DNA of 64,000 nt from Pantoea trifolii (GTDB lineage Bacteria; Pseudomonadota; Gammaproteobacteria; Enterobacterales; Enterobacteriaceae), in contig NZ_JANIET010000001.1 of assembly GCF_024506435.1 (NCBI RefSeq), positions 1-64,000 on the forward strand. Reading direction: 5' to 3'. This document shows, piece by piece, positions 1,390-57,741 of the stretch. Made by a program: the position numbers and the translations under genes. Position 1 is the stretch's first letter, and each line of letters starts with the position of its first letter. The notes under the pieces were generated by a model, which saw only the letters and a list, made by a program, of their open reading frames with translations, made no database searches and was not told where the DNA came from.

Positions 1390-2846
1390 TCTCACTGGAG
1401 ACGCTGAGTGCGCTGCTGTCGATTGGCGAAACCGAGTTAATCGAAGAGCTAATTATCGCGCTGCTCGCCTCGCCGCAGCTGGCGCTGTTCTTTGAGAAGT
1501 TTCCCCGCCTGAAGCAAGCCATGATGCGCGATCTGCCGCGCTGGCGATCGGAGATCGCCGAGCAGATCAAAGTCACGCCGGTGCCAGAAGCGCTGGCGCA
1601 GGAGTTTCAGCTGTTTCAACAGATGCAGCTGCTCAGCACACAACATTTCACCCAGCAGTTACCCAACATCATGACGCAGCTGAAAAGCCTGCCGTCGCCG
1701 TTCATCGAAGAAGCCAGCAAACTGCTGCTGAATGCCGAAAGCGACCAGCTCAGCAACGCGCAACACACCTTGTTCCTGCAACGCTGGCGTCTCAGCCTGA
1801 CGCTGCAAACGCTAACGCTGAATGAAACCATTCTCGAAGAGCAGCGCGAACGCTTGATGGCCGAGCTGCAACAGCGCATGGCGATCAGCGGCCAACTGGC
1901 GCCAATCCTCACCGATGATGATGAAGCCGCCGCCGGACGCCTGTGGGATTTGAGCAAAGCGCCGCTGCAGCACGGCGATTATGAACTGATCGTGCAATAC
2001 GGCGATTTCCTCGCCCAGCAGCCGGAGCTGATGAAGCTGGCGCAGCAGTTGGGTCGCAGCCGCGAAGCTAAATCGGTGCCGTCGCAGGATGCGCCGCTGG
2101 AGGAGTTTCACCAGCTGGTACGCGAACCGGATAACGTGCCGGAAGAGGTCAGCGGCATTCATCAAAGCGATGATGTGCTGCGTCTGTTACCGCCTGAATT
2201 GGCGGCATTGAGCATCAGCGAGTTAGAGCTGGAGTTTTACCGGCGCTTAGTTGAAAAACGCCTGCTGACTTATCGTCTGCAGGGCGATGCGTGGCATGAA
2301 AAAGTCACCATGAGTCCGGTCAGCCACCAGCAGCATGAAGAGCAACCGCGCGGCCCATTTATCGTCTGCGTTGATACGTCCGGTTCGATGGGCGGTTTCA
2401 ACGAACGCTGCGCCAAAGCCTTTTGCCTGGCGCTGCTGAAAGTGGCGCTGGCGGATAAGCGCCGCTGCTACATCATGCTGTTCGCTCATGAAGTGATCGG
2501 CTATGAACTCACCGCCGACAATGGCATTGAGCAGGCAATCCGTTTCCTCAGCCAGCGTTTTCGCGGCGGCACCGATCTCGCTGCCTGCCTTGCGGCGGTG
2601 GTGAAACGCATGGAAGGCAGCGCCTGGCAGGAAGCGGATGCGGTGATCGTCTCTGACTTTATTGCCCAACGTTTGCCGGACGACATCGTCAGCACCATTA
2701 AACAGCGTCAGCGCCAACATCAACAGCGTTTCCATGCGGTGGCGATGTCCCTGCATGGCAAACCCGGCATCCTGCGCATCTTCGATCACATCTGGCGCTT
2801 CGATACCGGCCTGAAAAGCCGTCTGCTGCGCCGCTGGCAGCGCTAA
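1386..2846 (+). CDS. viaA: VWA-domain protein ViaA, RavA partner
   Basis: Partner of RavA; it stimulates RavA ATPase activity in E. coli. The protein has 486 residues (E. coli 483). A long helical N-terminal region is followed by a von Willebrand factor A domain whose metal-ion (MIDAS) motif DTSGSMG begins at Asp330. A further SDFIAQRLP segment occupies the later MIDAS Asp position. The start overlaps the ravA stop in an ATGA arrangement, so translation is probably coupled. A 67-bp gap separates it from ovoA downstream, where E. coli has the convergent gene asnA. Confidence 0.95.
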
Positions 2847-2913
2847 TTCATCTGACGGAAATGCTAATTTGCTATATTGATAAGTTCGAGCACATAGCAA
2901 ACTGGAGCATCTT

Positions 2914-5040
2914 GTGACGACCGCCCAACTTCCCGTACCAACCCGCACGCTAAAACTTTCCGGCCATAACTCCGAACAAAAACGGGCCGAGCTGCTGGCG
3001 TACTTCACCCAAACCTGGGAACTGTATGAAAGCTTGTTTGATTGCCTGGCGGACGAGCGCGCCTGGTTTAACAAAGCCATTTCGTTGCGCCATCCGCTGA
3101 TCTTCTATTTTGGCCACACCGCGACCTTCTACATTAATAAGCTGATGGCGGGCCGCTATCTCGATCAACGCGTTGACGATCGCATCGAAGCGATGATGGC
3201 GATCGGCGTCGATGAGATGAGTTGGGACGATCTCAACGACAGCCATTACGACTGGCCGAGCATCGCAGAGGTGCGCGACTATCGTGGCAAAGTGAAAAGC
3301 CTGGTGAGTGAGTTTATTCGCACTATGCCGCTGGAACTGCCAATCGGCTGGGACAGCCCGGCGTGGGTGGTGTTGATGGGCATTGAGCACGAGCGTATTC
3401 ATCTGGAAACCTCCAGCGTGCTGATGCGCCAGTTGCCGATTGAATGGGTCAAGCCGCAGCCGTACTGGCCGGTTTGTCCGCAGGCGCGTCACGATCGTCA
3501 ATCGGTACCGGAAAATGCCCTGATCGCGATGCCCGGCGGCCGCGTGCAGCAGGGCAAAACCGACGACACCTATGGCTGGGATAACGAATACGGCAGTCAG
3601 CAAACCGAACTCAAGCCGTTTAAGGCCAGTAAGATGCTGGTCAGCAATGCCGAGTTTTATCGCTTCATTGCGGCGGACGGTTATAACAATCGCCGCTGGT
3701 GGGATGACGAAGGTTGGGGCTGGCGTGAATTCTCCGGCGCACAGATGCCGACATTCTGGGTCGGTGACGAAAAGCTGCCCGATCAGCTAAAACTGCGCGT
3801 GCTGGCCGAAGAAGTGGCGATGCCGTGGGATTGGCCAGCGGAAGTGAATCAACTGGAAGCCGCCGCTTTCTGCCGCTGGCTGGCCGAAGAGACCGGTAAA
3901 TCTATTCAGCTTCCCTGCGAGGCCGAATGGGCGCTGCTGCGTGAGCAGGTTGGCGGCGATCAGCCTGATTGGATTGAAGCACCGGGCAATATCAATCTGG
4001 CGTATTGGGCTTCCTCCAGCCCCGTCGACCGTTTCGCGCAGGGTGAGTTTTACGACATCGTCGGCAACGTTTGGCAGTGGACCACGACGCCAACCAACGG
4101 TTTCGAAGGCTTTAAGGTGCATCCGCTGTACGACGACTTCTCGACGCCGACCTTTGATGGCAAACATGCGCTAATCAAAGGTGGCAGCTGGATTTCTACC
4201 GGCAACGAAGCGCTGAAATCTGCGCGCTACGCTTTCCGTCGTCACTTCTTCCAGCACGCCGGTTTCCGCTATGTGGTTTCTTCCCATGAAGAGAGCATGG
4301 CCCTCAATCCCTATGAAACTGACAGCATGGTGTCGCAGTATCTCGATTTCCAGTACGGGCCGAGCTACTACAACGTGCCTAACTACGCGGCGGCACTGGT
4401 GGAAAAACTGCTGCCGCACTGCACTGCGCGCGGTCAGGCGCTGGACATCGGCTGCGCTACCGGGCGTGCCAGCTTTGAACTGGCACGACACTTCGACGCG
4501 GTAACCGGCATGGATTACTCGGCGCGTTTTATTGATGTCGCGCTGCAGCTGACCTCCGGTGAGGATTTCCGCTATGTTGTGCCCGAAGAAGGGGATCTGG
4601 TGGAGTATCGTCAGGTGCGGCTGAAAGAGTTTGGTCTCGAAGCAGAGCAAGCGCAGCGCATTCAGTTTGTGCAGGGCGATGCCTGTAACCTGAAGCCGCA
4701 GCCGGATCGTTACGATCTGGTGCTGGCCTCTAACCTGATTGATCGTCTGCGTCAGCCGAAGCGCTTCCTGCAGGATATTATCCCGATGATCCGTTCCGGC
4801 GGTTTGCTGGTGCTGTCATCGCCGTATACCTGGCTGGAAGATTTCACACCAAAAGAGAACTGGCTGGGCGGTGTGCGCGAAAATGGCGAAGCACTGACGA
4901 CCTATCAGGCGCTGCAGCGTCTGTTGCGTGATGCTTTCGACGAAGTGGCACCGCCGCAGGATGTGCCCTTTGTGATCCGCGAAACGGCGCGCAAATTCCA
5001 GCACACGCAGGCGCAAGTGACCTTCTGGCGTAAGCGCTAA
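2914..5040 (+). CDS. ovoA: 5-histidylcysteine sulfoxide synthase / methyltransferase OvoA
   Basis: Iron-dependent sulfoxide synthase that joins cysteine to the imidazole C5 of histidine, the first step to ovothiol A; its C-terminal domain N-methylates 5-thiohistidine. Three domains are visible in 708 residues. The first is a DinB-like N-terminus with His60/His68 and the iron-binding H-x3-H-x-E motif at His159/His163/Glu165. The second is a formylglycine-generating-enzyme-like domain at about 200-455, with WDNEYG, NVWQW and GGSWIS segments. The third is a SAM methyltransferase with LDIGCATG starting at residue 510. The start is GTG with GGAG about 8 bp upstream. The sulfoxide lyase OvoB needed for the pathway is not in the window. 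The gene occupies the asnA position beside asnC. Confidence 0.93.
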   Translation: MTTAQLPVPTRTLKLSGHNSEQKRAELLAYFTQTWELYESLFDCLADERAWFNKAISLRHPLIFYFGHTATFYINKLMAGRYLDQRVDDRIEAMMAIGVDEMSWDDLNDSHYDWPSIAEVRDYRGKVKSLVSEFIRTMPLELPIGWDSPAWVVLMGIEHERIHLETSSVLMRQLPIEWVKPQPYWPVCPQARHDRQSVPENALIAMPGGRVQQGKTDDTYGWDNEYGSQQTELKPFKASKMLVSNAEFYRFIAADGYNNRRWWDDEGWGWREFSGAQMPTFWVGDEKLPDQLKLRVLAEEVAMPWDWPAEVNQLEAAAFCRWLAEETGKSIQLPCEAEWALLREQVGGDQPDWIEAPGNINLAYWASSSPVDRFAQGEFYDIVGNVWQWTTTPTNGFEGFKVHPLYDDFSTPTFDGKHALIKGGSWISTGNEALKSARYAFRRHFFQHAGFRYVVSSHEESMALNPYETDSMVSQYLDFQYGPSYYNVPNYAAALVEKLLPHCTARGQALDIGCATGRASFELARHFDAVTGMDYSARFIDVALQLTSGEDFRYVVPEEGDLVEYRQVRLKEFGLEAEQAQRIQFVQGDACNLKPQPDRYDLVLASNLIDRLRQPKRFLQDIIPMIRSGGLLVLSSPYTWLEDFTPKENWLGGVRENGEALTTYQALQRLLRDAFDEVAPPQDVPFVIRETARKFQHTQAQVTFWRKR

Positions 5041-15011: not shown

Positions 15012-16472
<1,461 letters not shown>

Positions 16473-16496
16473 TTTAGGTTTCCCAGGAGGAATGGT

Positions 16497-16916
16497 ATGG
16501 CTATGACTTATCATCTGGACGTGGTCAGCGCGGAGCAACAAATGTTCTCCGGTCTGGTCGAGCGTATCCAGGTGTCAGGTAGCGAAGGTGAGTTGGGGAT
16601 TCGTCCTGGCCACGCCCCGCTGCTGACAGCCATCAAGCCTGGTATGATTCACATCGTGAAACAGCACGGCGAAGAGGAGTTTATTTACCTCTCTGGCGGC
16701 GTGCTGGAAGTTCAGCCTGGCAGCACCACCGTTCTGGCCGACACCGCGATTCGCGGTGAAGACCTTGACGAAGCGCGCGCGCTGGAAGCGAAACGTAAAG
16801 CAGAAGAGCACATGAACAGCAGCCACGGCGACGTGGACTATGCTCAGGCTTCTGCGGAACTGGCGAAAGCCATCGCGAAACTGCGTGTCATCGAGCTGAC
16901 CAAAAAAGCGATGTAA
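16497..16916 (+). CDS. atpC: ATP synthase F1 subunit epsilon
   Basis: Inhibitory and coupling subunit, 139 residues as in E. coli. It has an N-terminal beta-sandwich ([22 protein letters not shown]) and a C-terminal helical hairpin rich in Ala, Lys and Glu. The CAGGAGGAA ribosome-binding site is strong. Last gene of the atp operon, followed directly by a terminator. Confidence 0.96.
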
Positions 16917-50326: not shown

Positions 50327-50344
50327 TCAGGATGTGAGTTGAAA

Positions 50345-50371
50345 AAAACGCCGCTGAAAAGCGGCGTTTTT
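50345..50371. terminator. Terminator between ibpA and the eamA-type gene
   Basis: ACGCCGC / GCGGCGT stem with a TGAAAA loop, extended by an A-run before and a T-run after, so it can act on both strands. It would end ibpA on one side and the six-gene minus-strand operon on the other; the latter's stop codon is 3 bp from it. Confidence 0.88.
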
Positions 50372-50373
50372 GT

Positions 50374-51285
50374 TTAGGTGCGCACCAATAATCGCTGACT
50401 GACCATGCCGCCAAACACGTTCACCAGCAGGCCGAGGATGATCACTGAAACCCCAATCATCTGCTGAATTGACAAGGTTTCACCGAGAATCAGCGCCGCG
50501 CTGAGAATGCCCACCACCGGCACCAGCAGCGACAGCGGAGCTACGCGCCAGGTTTCATAGCGACTCAGCAGGTTGCCCCAAATCGCGTAGCCGACAATGG
50601 TGGCGATAAAGGCGAGATAGATCAGCGCCAACACCGTTTGCAGCGAGATGTGCAGCAGGCTGGTGACAATCGCCGCCTTACCATCGAACAGCCACGAGCA
50701 GGCAAAAAACGGCACTATCGGCACCAGCGCACTCCACACCACCAGCGACATCACCGGCACTTTGCGGTTACGCAAAATGATTTTGTTGGTGATATTGCCG
50801 AGCCCCCACGACAGCGCCGCAGCCAGCGTCAGCATCATGGTGGTGAGCGTAATGCCCGCCGTGGTTTGGCCTGCCATGCCTGCCGTCGCCAGCATAAACA
50901 TGCCGAGCGTCGCCACTAAAATGCCGGCGATGTGATTCCAGCGCAGCTTCTCCGCCAGGAACAGCGCGCCCAACAGTAAGGTGAAAAAGGCCTGCGCCTG
51001 TAACACCAGCGACGCCAATCCTGCCGGCATGCCCAGCTTGATGGCAAGGAACAGAAAAGCGAACTGGCCAAAGCTGATGGTCATGCCGTAGACGATCAGC
51101 CAGCGCAGCGGAATCGCCGGCCGCTTCACAAACAAGATCGCCGGAAACGCCACCAGGCTAAAACGCAATCCCGCCAGCAAGAAGGGCGGCATGTCCTGCA
51201 GGCCCAGCTTAATCACCACAAAATTCACGCCCCATGCCACCACAACCAGCAGGGCTAACAACATATCTTTCACTGACATACTCAT
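50374..51285 (-). CDS. eamA: EamA-type DMT exporter (O-acetylserine/cysteine-like)
   Basis: Drug/metabolite transporter with ten hydrophobic helices in two EamA repeats; E. coli EamA exports cysteine and O-acetylserine. The protein has 303 residues (E. coli 299). It shares LALLVVVAWGVNFVVIKLGL, GMPAGLASLVLQAQAFFTLLLGA, SLVVWSALVPIVPFF and SRYETWRVAPLSLLVPVVGILSAAL with it. It is the last gene of a six-gene operon, 15 bp after the deacylase gene, so here it may export the operon's amino-acid-like product. Whether it is the true eamA orthologue or a paralogue cannot be decided from the window. Confidence 0.82.
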   Translation of the reverse strand: MSMSVKDMLLALLVVVAWGVNFVVIKLGLQDMPPFLLAGLRFSLVAFPAILFVKRPAIPLRWLIVYGMTISFGQFAFLFLAIKLGMPAGLASLVLQAQAFFTLLLGALFLAEKLRWNHIAGILVATLGMFMLATAGMAGQTTAGITLTTMMLTLAAALSWGLGNITNKIILRNRKVPVMSLVVWSALVPIVPFFACSWLFDGKAAIVTSLLHISLQTVLALIYLAFIATIVGYAIWGNLLSRYETWRVAPLSLLVPVVGILSAALILGETLSIQQMIGVSVIILGLLVNVFGGMVSQRLLVRT

Positions 51286-51300
51286 TCCTTCCTGCCGTAA

Positions 51301-51801
51301 TCAGGCAGTTGCCGTTACCGGTGTCGCGATCTCGGCACAACATTCTTCACCGACAATCTTAAAGAAATCATCCACCTGTAAAGCAATGGAGCGATCCAGT
51401 GCGCCCGCGTTGAACCACAGCGTGCCGACGTCGCGCAGGCGCGCATCGACGCGTAGCGCCAGCCGGTCATCAAAACTAAACGGCGGCACCGCGCCCATCA
51501 CGCACTGGGTTAACTCCTGCGCTTTCTCTGGCGGCGCAAAGCTCGACTTCTTGCCGCCAATGGCGCGTGCGGCGCTTTTGAAGTTAATCTTGCAGTCGCC
51601 CGGCACAATCGCCAGCAGATAGCGCGCATCCGCGCCATCCGGCATCGTCACTTCCAGCACCATCGCTTTGGCCGCCTGATTGAGATCGTTACCGCGAATC
51701 TCGCTAATCAGGTCGGTCTGGCCGATGGCTTCATGCTCCACCACGCGATAACGCGCCTGATGCTGATCCAGCAGGGCCGCTACTTTTTCATAGGTATTCA
51801 T
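51301..51801 (-). CDS. YbaK/EbsC-type aminoacyl-tRNA deacylase, YeaK-like
   Basis: Member of the INS/YbaK superfamily of free-standing editing domains that hydrolyse mischarged tRNAs; closest in look to E. coli YeaK (ProXp-ST type, acting on Ser/Thr-type mischarging). The protein has 166 residues (YeaK 167). Shared features are the YRVVEHEAIGQTDLISEIRG start, a lysine-containing AAKAMVLEV strand, GAVPPFSFDD and a FNAGALDRSIAL end. Inside a biosynthetic operon it may remove tRNA mischarged with the product or an intermediate; that is inference. It lies between the oxygenase (27-bp gap) and the exporter. Confidence 0.8.
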   Translation of the reverse strand: MNTYEKVAALLDQHQARYRVVEHEAIGQTDLISEIRGNDLNQAAKAMVLEVTMPDGADARYLLAIVPGDCKINFKSAARAIGGKKSSFAPPEKAQELTQCVMGAVPPFSFDDRLALRVDARLRDVGTLWFNAGALDRSIALQVDDFFKIVGEECCAEIATPVTATA

Positions 51802-51828
51802 GCTCGTCTCCTCGTCGAAAACCTGGCG

Positions 51829-52629
51829 TTAACTCCAGGCGATGGCGTGTTTCATTTTTTTGTCGGTCAGGCCAAAGAAGAAGCCCATGGTGATGCGCGT
51901 GTCGCCTTCCACGCGATCAATTTCGTGATAAAACGCAGGGTTAAACAGATAGATATCGCCACTGCGCGGTGAGAACTCGCACACCTCGCTGTGCTCAATG
52001 ACGCCGGTTTGATAACCGAGCTCGCCCGGCGTTTTGTAATACTCATCCATCGGCTGCCACTTCTTATTGAAGATGCGCAGCTCGCCGCCGGCGTTGCACT
52101 CCTGCAAACAGACCACGCAGCTGAGTTGATGCAGGATGTGGGTCACCGCCAATCCGCTGCCAGCGGCATCGCGCACGATGTTGTCGTTATGCAGGGGATT
52201 GGCGACGCCGTTTGCGTGGAAGCGCACAATCGAACCGGCGTAATCGCCCAGTTCAGGTTCGTTAGCGGTTTGCAGGCTTTCCAGGCGCAGCGCGTGCTTA
52301 ACCCAGTTGTAGATCTGATCGCGCAGGCAGTGCAGCGACGGCGGCAGCGCGGGCTGGATATCGCGCAGCTCAGTGAAGTAGTTTTCCGGCGCAGCGGTGT
52401 GCTTCGCCAGATAAGGGCCAAGCGTGGTCAGCGCGCCGTTCGGATAGTGCGACACCCGCACCTGTTCGCGGCACTGCTGCAAATCATCGACCACCGCTGC
52501 GCGCACGTCCGGTGTGAGGAAATTACGTAATACCAGCAACGGCACGCGCGCGGTGACGATGTCATCCAGCCAGGTGCTTTCCACAAACATGTTCGGATGA
52601 ATAACGCGGATCTGATTGAAAATCGCCAT
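51829..52629 (-). CDS. 2-oxoglutarate/Fe(II)-dependent oxygenase
   Basis: Non-haem iron oxygenase that would hydroxylate, desaturate or epoxidise a small substrate. From ATG 52629 (GGGGAG eight bases upstream) it has 266 residues; a GTG nine bases earlier is possible but sits on the ribosome-binding site. The facial triad is visible: His147-x-Asp149 (PLHNDN) and His235 (FYHEID), with the 2-oxoglutarate-binding Arg245 (TRITMGFF) 10 residues later, all within a double-stranded beta-helix. The substrate is unknown. It sits in the operon after the amidotransferase, starting 5 bp past its stop. Confidence 0.8.
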   Translation of the reverse strand: MAIFNQIRVIHPNMFVESTWLDDIVTARVPLLVLRNFLTPDVRAAVVDDLQQCREQVRVSHYPNGALTTLGPYLAKHTAAPENYFTELRDIQPALPPSLHCLRDQIYNWVKHALRLESLQTANEPELGDYAGSIVRFHANGVANPLHNDNIVRDAAGSGLAVTHILHQLSCVVCLQECNAGGELRIFNKKWQPMDEYYKTPGELGYQTGVIEHSEVCEFSPRSGDIYLFNPAFYHEIDRVEGDTRITMGFFFGLTDKKMKHAIAWS

Positions 52630-52634
52630 GTTGA

Positions 52635-53342
52635 TCACTCCCCAATAGGAAACTCATGAAGTTCATGGTTACTCATACGACGCCATTCAGACGCCGTGCC
52701 CAGTGCTGAAATAGGTTCAGAAGAGATAAATGTGGTGTTGTTATTCTGTAAGCGGTGCAGCGTGAAATAGTTGGGATAGGGCGTATCGTCGGGATGCCAT
52801 TGCCACGCCCAGGCTTTATCGCGGGTGACAAAAATGGCGTTTGCCGAACTGCCGCCCGGCGCGACCTGCGCCATCTTGTCGCGCAAATAATCGCGGGTGA
52901 AATCCGCGGGCGTGGCGCGATCCACTACATATTCCAGATACTCAGCGGAATCAAAACGCGACTCCGCCATGCCCAATTGCTGATAGACGGTGGGCAAAAA
53001 ACCGTTATGCATCATGTACCACTGCGTTGCGCCGCTGGTGCGCCACAGCGGATGGGAAAATTCGATACCGTGATTTTTGCTCAGCGTGGCGTGGCGGACA
53101 TGCACCGCCAGAAAGCGGCCGCGCAGGCGATCAACATCAATGGTCGGCAGCGCATCGGCGAAAGTGCCGGTGCCGTGCAGCGTGCGAATGTGCCCTTGTT
53201 CCAGCCATAAACAGCCCCAACCGTTGGGATGCTGTTTAATCGGACCTTCGTGCGTGGCGGTTTCACCGCAGCTCATGGCACGCGCGGCGTCCAGCACTGC
53301 GGCGGCATCAAATTGGCCGTGCGCCACGATCATTCTGCACAT
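52635..53342 (-). CDS. Stand-alone class II glutamine amidotransferase
   Basis: Ntn-hydrolase glutaminase domain, 235 residues, without a fused synthetase. The N-terminal nucleophile is Cys2 (MCRMIVAHG). Other family residues are in PNGWGCLWL, VHVRHATLS and MMHNGFLP, the substrate-binding loops. It could release ammonia for the PP-loop ATPase in the same operon, or hydrolyse a gamma-glutamyl amide as EgtC does. The ATG is 13 bp inside the end of the ATP-grasp gene, with GGAGA eight bases upstream, so the two are translationally linked. Confidence 0.82.
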   Translation of the reverse strand: MCRMIVAHGQFDAAAVLDAARAMSCGETATHEGPIKQHPNGWGCLWLEQGHIRTLHGTGTFADALPTIDVDRLRGRFLAVHVRHATLSKNHGIEFSHPLWRTSGATQWYMMHNGFLPTVYQQLGMAESRFDSAEYLEYVVDRATPADFTRDYLRDKMAQVAPGGSSANAIFVTRDKAWAWQWHPDDTPYPNYFTLHRLQNNNTTFISSEPISALGTASEWRRMSNHELHEFPIGE

Positions 53343-54607
53343 AGTAAATCTCTCCGTGTGGTGAGCGATGAGACTTCAAGGATCTGATGGAACACCGCCA
53401 GAATTTCGTCACGGCTGGTAGCGGCGAGGCGGAAGGTGGCGAGAATGCCGGCGTGGCGGGTTAAATCGGCATACAGCGAAGAGCGCGGCGAAACCGCCAG
53501 CGCCGGCAGATTGAGCGGCGGCAACAGCTGACCGCGTTGATGCTGCTCGATCCAGCGTTCAGCCGCGTCATACTGCAGGCGCTGACGCAAACGCACGCGG
53601 CCCACCGCCTGCGGCTGCGGCGGAAAATGCAGCGGCGGCATGCTGTGACCGGCTTCGATGTGAAACGCCACTTCCGCCCAGTTAATGCCGGTAACTTCCT
53701 GCACCAGATTCACCACGCCCATGCCGGAAAGGCGGAAGCCCATTTCGAGGAAGTGCGGTTCGCCATTGACCACAATAAAGTCGATATGAAATGCGCCCTG
53801 ACGATAGCCGAAGGTTTCGCAGCAGAAGCTCATCAGGCTGCTAAAGCTGGCGGGCAGTTGCTGCGCCGCGACCGCCACATGACCGGATTCGTAAAAACTG
53901 ACGCAGCCATCGGCATCGCGATGGTGTTCGATCACCTTTTGGCAGCAGGTCAGCGCGACGGCGTGGCCGTCCGCCACCACGCCTTGCAGCGAATACTCAT
54001 CGCCCGCCAGCCAGCTCTCAACGATAAATCCGCTGAAGCCGCGTCCGCCGTAATTCATGGTATCGACCAGCTTGCCGATCACCGCATCGAGCTGGCTGGC
54101 CTCTTTCACCAGCCAGATGCCAAGGCCGCCGCCGCCATCAACCGGCTTAATCACGCAGGGATAGAGCAGCGCTTCACGCGCATCGCGGATGCTGAGCGGC
54201 GAGGCAAAAAAGCGAAACTCCGGTTGCGGAAAGCGCTGCCAGGCTTTGCGTAACGCCATGCGCTGCGCGTACTTATCCGGCGGAATAAAGCTCACACCGG
54301 CGTCGGGCCCCGCCAGCAGTTCGCGCACGCGACCGGCGCTGGCGTTGTAGGCTTCAAAGCCGGCCAGCACCACGTGAGGATGTTCCATCAACCCGGCATG
54401 CAAACAGGCTTGCAGCACATCCCACGGATTTTCCGGGCGATCGAGCCGCACAATCAGATCGAATGGCAACGGGATGCTCAGCGATTGGTAATCGACGAAG
54501 TCGCCCATCTCCGCCAGCACGGTAAAGTAGCCCTCGCGTTTGGCCACCGCGCAGTAAGGATTTTGTCCGTCGCGGGTGGCGCCAATCTGCAGGAAAATCT
54601 TTCTCAT
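53330..54607 (-). CDS. ATP-grasp ligase, amino-acid-ligase type
   Basis: ATP-grasp enzymes form amide bonds through acyl-phosphate intermediates. In 425 residues there is an N-terminal pre-ATP-grasp region (about 1-110) and the ATP-grasp fold with the nucleotide lysine and glycine loop PCVIKPVDGGGGLGIWLV. The metal-binding segment is DFIVVNGEPHFLEMGFRLSGMG. The E-x-G-x-R-x-x-G form of this last motif is typical of L-amino-acid or dipeptide ligases rather than PurK. A C-terminal lid region follows. The substrates are unknown. Start ATG with AAGG eight bases upstream, 17 bp after the PP-loop gene. Confidence 0.8.
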   Translation of the reverse strand: MRKIFLQIGATRDGQNPYCAVAKREGYFTVLAEMGDFVDYQSLSIPLPFDLIVRLDRPENPWDVLQACLHAGLMEHPHVVLAGFEAYNASAGRVRELLAGPDAGVSFIPPDKYAQRMALRKAWQRFPQPEFRFFASPLSIRDAREALLYPCVIKPVDGGGGLGIWLVKEASQLDAVIGKLVDTMNYGGRGFSGFIVESWLAGDEYSLQGVVADGHAVALTCCQKVIEHHRDADGCVSFYESGHVAVAAQQLPASFSSLMSFCCETFGYRQGAFHIDFIVVNGEPHFLEMGFRLSGMGVVNLVQEVTGINWAEVAFHIEAGHSMPPLHFPPQPQAVGRVRLRQRLQYDAAERWIEQHQRGQLLPPLNLPALAVSPRSSLYADLTRHAGILATFRLAATSRDEILAVFHQILEVSSLTTRRDLLCAE

Positions 54608-54624
54608 CGCGTTGCCTTACCGGG

Positions 54625-56091
54625 TTAACGCCCGGAGATCACTTCAGTGACGACGTCTTGCATGACACCGTTATTCACCTGAATCACTGCTTTGTGCGGG
54701 TCAAAACGCAGCACGCGCGAAAGCGCATCGCCGCGCTGATCGTCCAGCAGTGAACTCACCTGCGCGCTGCGCCAGCAGTGACGCATCTGCGCCACGGTCA
54801 AACCAGAAAGTTGCTCCAGCTGCTGCGCCAGCAACAGATCGTCGCTTTCGCCGCGCAGCAGCGCGCGCACCGCCGCTTCGTCCGGCGCATCGGCCAACTG
54901 CTGCAGCCAGCTTTTTAGCTGATGGCCTTCGGCGATAAACGGCGAATAGATCATGCAAACCAGTTGGGTTTCATTGAGGCCGAATGCTTGTTCGGCGAAC
55001 TGCGCAGCGCGCTGGCGGGCGCGCTTAATCGCCTTATCGTCCTGATAGCGTGCCGCCATCTCATCGATCAGCTGCGGCGGGAAATCCTTTTTCACCATCA
55101 GCCCGAGCGCAAAGCGCACATATTCGCGAATGCCTTCGGCGTAGCTGCGCTGCAACAGCGTCTCCGCTCGCAGACCGCGAATATGTGCCATTAACGTCGG
55201 GTTACCGCAGTCCGATTCGGAGAAGCTGAACATCAGTTCATCAAAGCGGAAATGCATAAATTCGGTCAGCAGCGCCCAGTGCGCGCCAGCTTCATACGCG
55301 GTGTCTTGATAGATATTGAAGAACAGCGGATCGCGTTCCAGCTGCCAGGTAATGCGGTGCGCGGGCGTCACCTGGTCGGCGCCGTAGATATCGGCGAAAT
55401 AGCGCTCGGCCACGCCATCCAGCGTCTGCAGGAAGCCGCTAAAGCCGCGCGATTTATCCGCCACCGGCGCATCAAACAGCCGCGAAAGATGGCGCGCCCA
55501 TGCCAGATAAGCGGTTTGTTCCTGCGGCGAATCACCTGTGATGATCACATCAACGCCACCGTCGTAATGCGCCGCCAGGCCAAACGAGTTCACCATGCTG
55601 AGATTGCAGGCGTTACAAAAGGTAGAGCGCGCATCGGCACGGAAGCGGTGGCCATTCATCAGCACATCGTTGCGATTTTGCTGGCGTACGCTGTCGGGCA
55701 TCGGTAAATGGCGATCGAAGTGGCGGATTTGCAGGCCGTCGGTCACCAGACATTCGGTAAAGTCATCATCGGGGATGTGCAGCGCGCGATACACGCGATC
55801 GATATTCTCCATCACGCTGTCGTTCATCGCCGCATGACGGTTGGTGCTGATGCGCAGCTGAAAGGTGGTGCCGTGCTGCTGCCAGATCAGCCCCTGAATG
55901 TAGCGTACGTACGCCACCATATAGCTGCTGTCTTTGCCGCCGCCGTAGGCCAGCAACACGCGGTTATTTTCCGGGTGCGCGGCATCGGGAAGTGCGGCCA
56001 GTAAACGGCGTGAACAGTGTTGCGCTGAATCGATAATCGTCGGAGTGAGATATCCACTCATCTCTCGCATCATGGTGGACAGATTATTCAT
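54625..56091 (-). CDS. PP-loop (N-type ATP pyrophosphatase) enzyme of unknown substrate
   Basis: First gene of the six-gene operon, 488 residues. The PP-loop YGGGKDSS starts at Tyr49 (Gly50-Ser55), placing it in the adenylating AANH/ATP-pyrophosphatase group that includes asparagine synthetase, TilS and sugar amidotransferases. A CxxC pair (Cys160, Cys163; TFCNACN) suggests a bound metal or a sulfur chemistry step. A C-terminal 200 residues are helical and not recognised. With the glutaminase encoded two genes on, the simplest reading is adenylation of a carboxylate or carbonyl followed by amide or amidine formation. The start at 56091 is likely but has only an AGGA 11 bp away. Confidence 0.72.
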   Translation of the reverse strand: MNNLSTMMREMSGYLTPTIIDSAQHCSRRLLAALPDAAHPENNRVLLAYGGGKDSSYMVAYVRYIQGLIWQQHGTTFQLRISTNRHAAMNDSVMENIDRVYRALHIPDDDFTECLVTDGLQIRHFDRHLPMPDSVRQQNRNDVLMNGHRFRADARSTFCNACNLSMVNSFGLAAHYDGGVDVIITGDSPQEQTAYLAWARHLSRLFDAPVADKSRGFSGFLQTLDGVAERYFADIYGADQVTPAHRITWQLERDPLFFNIYQDTAYEAGAHWALLTEFMHFRFDELMFSFSESDCGNPTLMAHIRGLRAETLLQRSYAEGIREYVRFALGLMVKKDFPPQLIDEMAARYQDDKAIKRARQRAAQFAEQAFGLNETQLVCMIYSPFIAEGHQLKSWLQQLADAPDEAAVRALLRGESDDLLLAQQLEQLSGLTVAQMRHCWRSAQVSSLLDDQRGDALSRVLRFDPHKAVIQVNNGVMQDVVTEVISGR

Positions 56092-56304
56092 TTTTCACTT
56101 CATCCTTTGGCTAATAAAGTCGCTGCTGCCGTGCTGGCGGCAACAGACGGGAAATGGGCCACGAAGGTGCTACGGAATGAATTTTTTAGTCGGAAGCGGC
56201 ACTGCAACTAATGCGTATGGTTATCAATTAACTGATGCAGCCTAAAGTACTTTGAATGTAATCTGGTGAAAACGCACAGATCCGGACGAAATAGGGTGGA
56301 ACAG
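56092..56304. promoter_or_regulatory. Divergent control region of the unknown operon and its MocR regulator
   Basis: About 210 bp between the divergent PP-loop and regulator genes; it must hold both promoters. An imperfect palindrome ATCAATTAACTGAT (56223-56236, one mismatch between arms) is a candidate operator. CTGCAACTAATGCG and CTGATGCAG segments flank it. No convincing -35/-10 pair stood out by eye on either strand. Confidence 0.45.
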
Positions 56305-57741
56305 ATGGCGGGTGAAACGGAACAGGGCAGTCGTTACCGTCAAATCGCAGAGCAGATAAAACAAGCCATTCACAGCGGCTCGCTGCCGCCCGACAGCCGT
56401 TTACCGTCGGTGCGCACGCTGGCGACGCAGTACAGCGTCAGCATGACCACCGCGCTGAAAACATTACGTACCCTTGAGGATGAGCACTACGCGGTGGCGC
56501 GTCCCAAGTCTGGTTTTTTTGTCGCCCCGCGACCTGCTAATAAAGCGCTTCCCACGGTGATCAACGAGCAAGCGCGCGAAGTGGCGCCGCTCGACGAGCA
56601 AACCGAGCTGCATCTGGCGATGCTCGGTTCAGACTGCCGCGTGCGGCTGGATCTGGCCAACGGCGACATCTCACTCTATCCGGTGAAGAAGATTGGTTTG
56701 CTGATGCGCCAGATGGGATACAGCAAACCGGCGCTGCTCGGCAACACCGTGAAGGGCACCGGCTATGCGCCGCTGAAAAATGAAATTGCACGCCGCGCGG
56801 TGGATTATGGCTGCAATATCAACGCTGATGACATCCTGATCACTAACGGCTGCATTGAAGCGATTTCGCTGGCGCTGCGCGCCACCACGCGGCCTGGCGA
56901 TATCGTTGCGGTGGAGTCGCCCTGCTATTTCGTGCTGCTGCAGATGCTGCATAACCTCAATCTGCGGGTGATTGAGGTGGAAGCCGGGCCGGAGGGTTAC
57001 GTCAATGTGGAAAAACTCACCGCGCTGTTTCAGCGCAAAGCGGTGCAGGCGTATCTCACCATCAACAACATCAACAATCCGCTGGGCAAAAGCATTCCCA
57101 ACGAGCAGAAAGCCTATATTGCGCGTCAGGCCGACGAGAACGATGTGGTGATCATTGAGGATGATATCTTCGGCGATACCGCATTCGGCGAGCGCCGCCC
57201 GTTCCCGATGCGCGCCTTCAGCCCGAACGCTATTTTGTGCAGCGGCTTCTCGAAAACTGTCGCGCCTGGCATTCGCATTGGCTGGGTGCACAGCAGCAAC
57301 TACATGCGCAAAATCGCCTCGCTGAAATACACCACTAGCATGGGCACGTCGGTATTGTCGCAGGCGGCGATTGCAGAGCTGCTGCGCAGCGGCGGCTACG
57401 ATGCGCATCTGCGTAAGCTACGGCGTGAGTTGAAGAATCAAATCCAGCATATGCGTCAGGCGGTGCTGCGCTACTTCCCGCCGGGCACGCGGGTTTCTGA
57501 TCCCGAAGGCGGCTATGTGTTGTGGGTGGAAATGCCGATCGGTGCATTGAATGTGCGCGCGCTGTTTCTCAAGGCGCGCAATGCGGGCATCGGTATCGCG
57601 CCGGGGCACATTTTTGCCACGGATCACCGCTACGATCACTGTTTTCGACTCAACGCTGGTTTTGGCTGGAATGCCGAAGTGGAGCAGGCGATTCAGCAAC
57701 TGGCGCAGTGGTGCCAGTTGTCGTTACCGGCGGGATCGTAG
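56305..57741 (+). CDS. MocR-type transcriptional regulator (GntR HTH plus PLP aminotransferase domain)
   Basis: PLP-dependent regulator of the MocR/PdxR class, which sense amino compounds or vitamin B6. From ATG 56305 (AGGGTGGA just upstream) it has 478 residues; a GTG 39 bp earlier has no ribosome-binding site. The N-terminal winged helix (about 5-75, IKQAIHSGSLPPDSRLPSVRTLATQYSVSMTTALKTLRTLE) is followed by a type I aminotransferase-like domain with the PLP lysine at Lys317 (SGFSKTVAPGIRIGW). Divergence from the six-gene operon makes it the probable regulator. The stop codon falls inside a palindromic repeat. Confidence 0.85.
   Translation: MAGETEQGSRYRQIAEQIKQAIHSGSLPPDSRLPSVRTLATQYSVSMTTALKTLRTLEDEHYAVARPKSGFFVAPRPANKALPTVINEQAREVAPLDEQTELHLAMLGSDCRVRLDLANGDISLYPVKKIGLLMRQMGYSKPALLGNTVKGTGYAPLKNEIARRAVDYGCNINADDILITNGCIEAISLALRATTRPGDIVAVESPCYFVLLQMLHNLNLRVIEVEAGPEGYVNVEKLTALFQRKAVQAYLTINNINNPLGKSIPNEQKAYIARQADENDVVIIEDDIFGDTAFGERRPFPMRAFSPNAILCSGFSKTVAPGIRIGWVHSSNYMRKIASLKYTTSMGTSVLSQAAIAELLRSGGYDAHLRKLRRELKNQIQHMRQAVLRYFPPGTRVSDPEGGYVLWVEMPIGALNVRALFLKARNAGIGIAPGHIFATDHRYDHCFRLNAGFGWNAEVEQAIQQLAQWCQLSLPAGS

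Follow-up and report, generated by a model that had tools for sequence, protein, structure and literature searches.

What do the six genes at positions 50374-56091 of a 64,000-nucleotide stretch of Pantoea trifolii DNA (NZ_JANIET010000001.1, positions 1 to 64,000; hereafter the window) make, and are they inherited together? The genes encode, in order of transcription, a PP-loop ATP pyrophosphatase-like enzyme, an ATP-grasp ligase, a class II glutamine amidotransferase, a 2-oxoglutarate (2OG)/Fe(II) oxygenase, a YbaK/YeaK-type editing domain, and an EamA-type exporter, with a divergent MocR-type regulator gene upstream. The best explanation, which we advance tentatively and with a little less than even confidence, is a MocR-controlled cassette for a small modified, perhaps thio-, amino acid or ATP-grasp-linked dipeptide that is exported via a resident EamA protein. 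Its broader part, that the product is a small amino-acid metabolite or dipeptide, is probable. This explanation is based on the order of MocR and the six genes in 23 of 26 loci, Hafnia included, the joint absence of the enzyme genes in all six block-less genomes, low dN/dS values, and a conserved control block. It also draws on a second cluster type, in which an AsnA-like amidating enzyme occurs together with an SsuD/SfnG-like monooxygenase, and on the fact that YbaK and EamA here and the pseudomonad monooxygenase are nearest to cysteine or sulfur proteins.

In the proposed pathway, the oxygenase would hydroxylate a free amino acid, the amidotransferase would free ammonia to yield a carboxamide (or would take off a gamma-glutamyl group), and the ATP-grasp enzyme would form an amide bond. 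The PP-loop enzyme would adenylate a carboxylate or amide oxygen and then replace it, most likely with sulfur via a [4Fe-4S] cluster on C159, C162, and C295, so as to form a thioamide or thiocarboxylate. Protection of the cell may fall to the YbaK-like domain, which would clear tRNA mischarged with the product; EamA, which is related to the cysteine/O-acetylserine exporter, would carry the product out of the cell. The earlier note on this DNA had proposed an operon for a hydroxylated or amidated amino acid or dipeptide. A linked, conserved, and selected unit with amino-acid-type chemistry is what remains of that proposal; the unit itself excludes EamA, and the PP-loop cysteines favor sulfur. 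Pantoea, a plant-associated genus, carries the gene set in most of the genomes sampled, and the set is built on an enzyme family with neither a Pfam entry nor an assigned function.

Layout and conservation of the gene set

Open reading frames (ORFs), Pfam matches, and a terminator stem placed every element that the earlier note had described: six minus-strand genes separated by gaps of 17, 5, 27, and 15 bp and one 13-bp overlap (ATP-grasp/amidotransferase), a divergent MocR gene on the plus strand (56305-57741), and an intrinsic terminator (50341-50373; stem 50349-50366) between the operon end and ibpA. The 5-bp gap assumes that the oxygenase starts at ATG 52629, the start found in 17 of 17 relatives inspected; an alternative GTG lies at 52638. 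The downstream neighbor is ibpA (NCBIfam IbpA, 267 bits; cutoff 212), and the neighbor past MocR is avtA (839 bits). Pfam assigned five of the six operon genes, and the PP-loop protein was identified instead via its YGGGKDSS motif and its fold.

All six genes are under purifying selection, with median dN/dS values over 14 relatives of 0.10 (PP-loop), 0.12 (ATP-grasp), 0.12 (amidotransferase), 0.08 (oxygenase), 0.14 (YbaK), and 0.09 (EamA), and 0.06 for MocR; Hafnia, saturated at synonymous sites, was excluded from these medians. Since the values for the six genes span only 0.08-0.14 and the order is kept in 23 of 26 loci, the gene set is more than a chance assembly.

The MocR/PP-loop intergenic region contains a conserved control block (56235-56281) with the inverted repeat ATCTG-N11-CAGAT (AAAGTACTTT). 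Across 17 aligned intergenic regions this block appeared as a strongly conserved stretch, ATCTGTGCGTATTCA-CAGATTACATTCAAAGTACTTTAGGCTGCAT, which was recognizable in Hafnia, and its 31-base core occurred once in the window at up to three mismatches versus no occurrence in 100 shuffles. The MocR protein carries a GntR and an aminotransferase class I/II (Aminotran_1_2) domain, both above cutoff (58.5 and 102.8 bits), and we infer that it binds the control block as its putative operator. The listed ORF start, GTG 56266, falls inside the conserved operator, so that MocR probably starts at ATG 56305.

The PP-loop enzyme and its cysteines

The PP-loop enzyme (54625-56091, minus strand; 488 residues) matched no Pfam family. 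Its YGGGKDSS motif lies at residue 50 and is followed by a CXXC-C arrangement, C159, C162, and C295, which was invariant in 57 of 57 sequences; C26 is the only conserved cysteine before the PP-loop, and the C-terminal end is an invariant Ser-Gly-Arg (SGR). Among the families present in the structural lists, Foldseek ranked the thiolase NcsA first for the model of this protein (E 1.8e-3) and asparagine synthetase second, while the best VIA-align match was N-acetyl sugar amidotransferase, with the fold of 8wex recovered. The structural alignment with NcsA ended at model residue 296 and chain residue 233, and the NcsA cluster ligands are Cys142, 145, and 233 according to the accessible part of PMC10067955. 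Because the NcsA alignment and one LarE alignment end close to the third or sulfur-giving cysteine of those enzymes, C295 would lie within 1-2 residues of it (PMC10067955 and PMC9283937, as far as the excerpts go). The distance from C162 to the next conserved Gly is 24 residues, and the same pattern spans 23 residues in 23 of 24 TtcA sequences.

The cysteines thus appear to be placed as in [4Fe-4S] sulfur insertases, which points to sulfur insertion rather than amide formation. Like TtcA, TtuA, NcsA, and LarE, our enzyme presents a PP-loop, then CXXC, then a third cysteine, but it differs from these insertases in its length, its large C-terminal region, its SGR end, and its location in an amino-acid gene cluster. 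No full-length sequence relation to TtcA was detectable by profile-profile comparison (hhalign, local mode), and the single TtcA match in the window's genome (NF007972, at C1:2163342) was not the PP-loop gene. On the invariant cysteines, the top Foldseek rank of NcsA, the TtcA-like spacing, and the co-loss of C295 and C162 in decayed homologs described below, we consider sulfur chemistry at the PP-loop step a possibility that falls short of an even chance.

The decayed homologs belong to a pseudomonad genus, which we take to be Pseudomonas. Another form of the PP-loop protein in this genus adjoins a MocR gene in all 14 fetched loci. Among 33 motif-scored loci of that form, 22 kept the PP-loop, the three cysteines, and the SGR end; three (L230-L232) had lost the PP-loop Lys/Asp and kept the cysteines; and the remaining eight (L233-L235 and L050-L054) had an altered PP-loop together with loss of C295 in all eight and of C162 in seven. 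The Gly-Arg end was still present in 8 of the 11 decayed homologs. This pattern of loss indicates that the nucleotide site and the cysteines decay stepwise, C162 mostly with C295, and the series thereby marks residues that act together. H303, considered as a zinc ligand, is a less likely candidate since it was kept in 11 of 11 scored decayed homologs while C295 was lost in eight. The same 11 proteins (L230-L235 and L050-L054) have the appearance of PP-loop pseudo-enzymes and stand beside a MocR gene wherever the flanks were fetched.

The active site would also allow amidine or amide chemistry, which at this step is rather unlikely in our estimate. The earlier note had assumed that PP-loop enzymes with glutaminases make amides; this survives as one of two chemistries, with CXXC-C pointing to the other. 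In its fullest form, which we judge unlikely, the enzyme would be half of a split amidotransferase. It would activate a carbonyl by adenylation and insert ammonia released by the class II partner, yielding an amide or amidine, after which the ATP-grasp enzyme would make a dipeptide; the cysteines would hold zinc. The models for such a system are N-acetyl sugar amidotransferase, acting on sugars, and asparagine synthetase, acting on aspartate. That the former was the best VIA-align match and beat TtcA by profile weighs against the sulfur reading; the second Foldseek rank of asparagine synthetase and the amidotransferase gene within the unit, which accompanies the PP-loop gene in Nostoc and others as judged by locus tags and record lengths, also favor a split enzyme. 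Asparagine synthetase B likewise combines a class II amidotransferase with a PP-loop, whereas the two are separate genes here, and the PP-loop protein, having no Pfam match, is not a member of Asn_synthase.

The position of the cysteines argues against a split enzyme. N-acetyl sugar amidotransferases (WbpG/WbuX/LpNASAT) share the PP-loop core with our enzyme, but their zinc tetracysteine precedes the PP-loop (PMC10607449, in the portion available), whereas CXXC-C follows it here. All 13 scored sugar-amidotransferase sequences had two CXXC before the PP-loop and one of the 13 had one after it, while no CXXC-Xn-CXXC zinc motif was found ahead of the PP-loop in our protein, whose cysteines are different ones. 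In addition, no sugar genes occur among the seven genes, TIGR03573 (N-acetyl sugar amidotransferase) had no match in the window's genome, nothing in the pseudomonad clusters matched this class II amidotransferase, and the annotation of the Methylobacter cluster shows no such gene.

Several homologs are named "PqqD family protein" in NCBI/UniRef; a PqqD/RRE domain was discarded since no Pfam domain was found at E<=1 in the five members scanned, nor at 0.1 in the window's protein. Sequence matches of the PP-loop protein to G-protein chains and psoriasin in the PDB were attributed to chance.

The other enzymes and the exporter

The ATP-grasp protein (53330-54607, minus strand; 425 residues; Pfam ATP-grasp_3, 52 bits) had an L-amino acid ligase (BL00235) as its best solved-structure match. 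The amidotransferase (52635-53342, minus strand; 235 residues; Pfam GATase_4, 29 bits) begins MCRM, with the catalytic cysteine directly after the initiator Met, as expected at the N terminus of such enzymes; Cys2 was present in 86 of 106 homologs. Its sequence is compatible with either glutaminase or gamma-glutamyl hydrolase activity; the protein may also be described as an EgtC-like Ntn hydrolase. The conserved Cys-Ala-Glu/Gly ("CAE/CAG") end of the ATP-grasp protein was rejected as a protein feature because it is dictated by the 13-bp overlap (53330-53342), in which the amidotransferase start ATG TGC AGA ATG reads TGT GCA GAA TGA in the other frame. This end occurred in 8 of 51 distant ATP-grasp proteins, three of which (P0180, P0205, and P0213) are apparently on the same record as an amidotransferase, judging from equal record length, and it hints at an adjacent amidotransferase, which may be useful in databases without gene context.

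EgtC-type enzymes hydrolyze gamma-glutamyl amides, and the unit could be read as a protect-modify-deprotect route like that of ergothioneine, in which a gamma-glutamyl or aminoacyl group is attached by the ATP-grasp enzyme, kept while the PP-loop enzyme and the oxygenase modify the substrate, and finally removed by an EgtC-like hydrolase. EgtC (TIGR03442) was indeed the top NCBIfam match of the class II enzyme, at 20.9 bits (23.2 for the Nostoc homolog), but these scores are far under the cutoff of 218.65 and the seven genes include no further ergothioneine-type gene, which leaves this route improbable.

The oxygenase (51829-52629, minus strand; 266 residues) falls in the WelO5/HilA group, matching PF22814 (WelO5) at 72.5 bits (cutoff 27) and the isoleucine dioxygenase HilA at 30 bits, under its cutoff of 500. 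In WelO5-type halogenases, HxG replaces HxD. Their chains read H-V-G-N-D, whereas our oxygenase has H-N-D, a motif present in 18 of 18 sequences, so that hydroxylation rather than halogenation would be expected; a structure model of this protein, with a predicted local distance difference test score of 54.8, was left unused. The YbaK-like protein (51301-51801, minus strand; 166 residues) matched Pfam tRNA_edit at 76.8 bits and scored 60.8 bits with the YbaK Cys-tRNA deacylase model TIGR00011, below the cutoff of 153.25. The exporter, the last gene of the operon (50374-51285, minus strand; 303 residues; Pfam EamA, 109 bits), reached 396 bits with the O-acetylserine/cysteine exporter model NF008523, just under its cutoff of 472.

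Distribution and inheritance

Of 36 genomes from the window's genus, Pantoea, and counting the window's own, 30 had a match to the PP-loop gene. It was full length in 28, broken into three pieces in G003, and reduced to a 32-residue remnant in G014. None of 24 genomes of other families gave a match. In even samples, the gene was found in 3 of 394 genomes of the order, all of the window's genus; in 1 of 369 of the class, the window's own; and in 7 of 398 of the phylum, namely two of the window's genus and five of one pseudomonad genus.

MocR and the six genes stood in one order in 23 of the 26 loci fetched from named genomes, and all seven were full-length open frames in 18. One or two genes were short or broken in five loci (L027, L028, L033, L034, and L036), and the block was mostly degraded in three (L038, L042, and L046), two of which are titled insect symbionts; L042 is also an insect-symbiont Pantoea. 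The named relatives at 96-100% identity were Pantoea (e.g., L041 and L021), although some deposits are titled Enterobacter or Erwinia. Within the 23 intact-order loci, avtA was present in 22 and ibpA in 21. Hafnia psychrotolerans (L040), whose PP-loop protein is 67% identical, has neither neighbor and carries the unit at another site, indicating that the unit has moved. By ORF reading, an enolase-like ORF precedes the Hafnia unit, separated from it by transposase-like ORFs (2380-3680), and an ArdC-like ORF lies at the opposite end (15763-16764), an arrangement that suggests a mobile island.

Six of the 36 Pantoea-genus genomes (G002, G010, G011, G012, G019, and G029) lacked the PP-loop gene. 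Five of them also lacked a MocR ortholog (best match 33-37%). The oxygenase was not matched in five of the six, and G011 gave a weak match at 28% identity. At the avtA-ibpA site, all five enzyme genes were without a match in each of the six genomes, the ATP-grasp, amidotransferase, and YbaK genes having been sought at that site only. EamA, however, was still encoded between avtA and ibpA in all six (79-86% identical), and a further genome beside these (L097) shows avtA-eamA-ibpA in a 3.9-kb locus. In G029 (L092:1055-3486), MocR (81%) and eamA are retained about 60 bp apart with the operator persisting, and precisely the five enzyme genes that would separate the operator/promoter from eamA are absent; the operator pattern had no match at the other five fetched block-less sites or in L097. 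Another locus (L216) has a MocR (64%) divergent to an EamA (68%) with the block absent. These results show that eamA is resident between avtA and ibpA, and since it is kept there in six of six block-less genomes, the inherited, gained-or-lost unit is MocR plus five genes. Inheritance as a six-gene Erwiniaceae unit, as envisaged earlier, therefore holds for the linkage and conserved order but not for EamA.

Such a distribution also bears on whether the genes serve housekeeping or the salvage of an amino acid or of sulfur, with no exported specialized metabolite, in which EamA would be a bystander sharing the promoter. The full-length PP-loop gene in 28 of 36 Pantoea-genus genomes and the persistence of EamA without the block fit this idea. 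We nevertheless assign it little probability, as the PP-loop gene was matched in none of the 24 genomes of other families and, among the 394 sampled from the order, only in three of the window's genus, the unit has moved, and a tRNA-editing gene within the unit suggests a noxious product.

Relation to known clusters

The dapdiamide (dda) cluster of Pantoea has an ATP-grasp ligase, a 2OG oxygenase, amide formation, and an exporter, together with diaminopropionate and carrier-protein genes. Our unit shares a ligase, an oxygenase, and an exporter of these kinds with it, as well as the proposed amide formation, but adds the PP-loop enzyme, the class II amidotransferase, and YbaK and occurs in most Pantoea genomes sampled. 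No diaminopropionate or carrier-protein genes are among the seven, and the ATP-grasp protein scored 35.9 bits with the dapdiamide synthase DdaF equivalog (NF041595) versus a cutoff of 840, bearing out the earlier view that this is not the dapdiamide cluster.

The 12 antibiotic clusters catalogued for Pantoea are rare according to the available part of PMC11350110, where those listed each occur in less than 2% of Pantoea genomes, and our unit does not look like any of them by their descriptions there, as distinct from their sequences. In PNP-1, the MocR-type regulator is similarly divergent but its neighbors are other genes (PMC4010436, in excerpt), and the accessible text of PMC7744662 had no match for the terms looked up. 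No description of the Pantoea cassette was found in the literature searched, from which subscription journals were mostly absent. Viral contigs, a viral fold library, and Rfam gave no informative match, nor did E. coli genomes by megablast alone.

Homologs in other phyla and a second cluster type

Besides Streptomyces, cyanobacteria, and myxobacteria, the pseudomonad genus has members of the PP-loop family, in 313 of the 398 genomes sampled. Homologs occur in Streptomyces, Nostoc, Myxococcus, and Brevibacillus, some of them together with ATP-grasp and amidotransferase genes, gene context outside the phylum being judged from locus tags and record lengths. Record lengths common to the homolog lists numbered four for PP-loop/ATP-grasp, seven for PP-loop/amidotransferase, and five for ATP-grasp/amidotransferase, compared with 0.08, 0.14, and 0.12 expected from jittered lengths. 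Pseudomonas LB3P31 was present in all three lists, and in Nostoc NIES-4103 the PP-loop and amidotransferase genes bear locus tags 54280 and 54300. This indirect evidence suggests that the three genes form a core across phyla. The core, and the occurrence of the PP-loop enzyme in a second cluster type, run counter to a unit peculiar to Erwiniaceae.

We fetched six loci from the ten strongest pseudomonad matches (L219-L223 and L236; L223:4615-14653). All six had the same order: an AsnA-like gene, a luciferase-like (LLM) monooxygenase, a B12-subunit homolog, an ATP-grasp, the PP-loop gene, MutE, a second ATP-grasp, and a PanB-like gene, with MocR opposed; five also had a major facilitator superfamily gene inside the cluster. 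The monooxygenase is nearest to SsuD and SfnG, the B12-subunit homolog was found by tblastn (the L223 copy has no Pfam match), and the second ATP-grasp scored 227 bits with DdaF, under the cutoff of 840. No description of this AsnA-like/B12 glutamate mutase cluster was found in the literature searched. Amidation of the AsnA type and subsequent thionation would bring the two kinds of cluster under one scheme.

A more far-reaching proposal, which is unlikely as a whole, is that the PP-loop proteins are a new non-redox sulfur-inserting family acting on free amino acids or dipeptides and not on tRNA, deployed in at least two differently equipped clusters in several phyla to make thioamide or thiocarboxylate antimetabolites, with the SGR tail taking part in the reaction or in partner docking. 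If the sulfur reading is true, the unit would place thioamide or thiocarboxylate groups on amino acids by a new route; under either the sulfur or the amide reading, four or five enzymes are enough to test the chemistry directly.

A Methylobacter plasmid (L047:13375-20093) carries a partial version of the pseudomonad cluster, with genes for an AsnA-like protein, a B12-binding MutS-like subunit, a PP-loop protein (40%), MutE, EamA, and a MocR-like protein, and PanB further along. Only the aminotransferase domain was found in the MocR-like protein, and a transposase gene adjoins. An insertion sequence and His-Xaa-Ser radical SAM maturase genes are also found close to the plasmid cluster.

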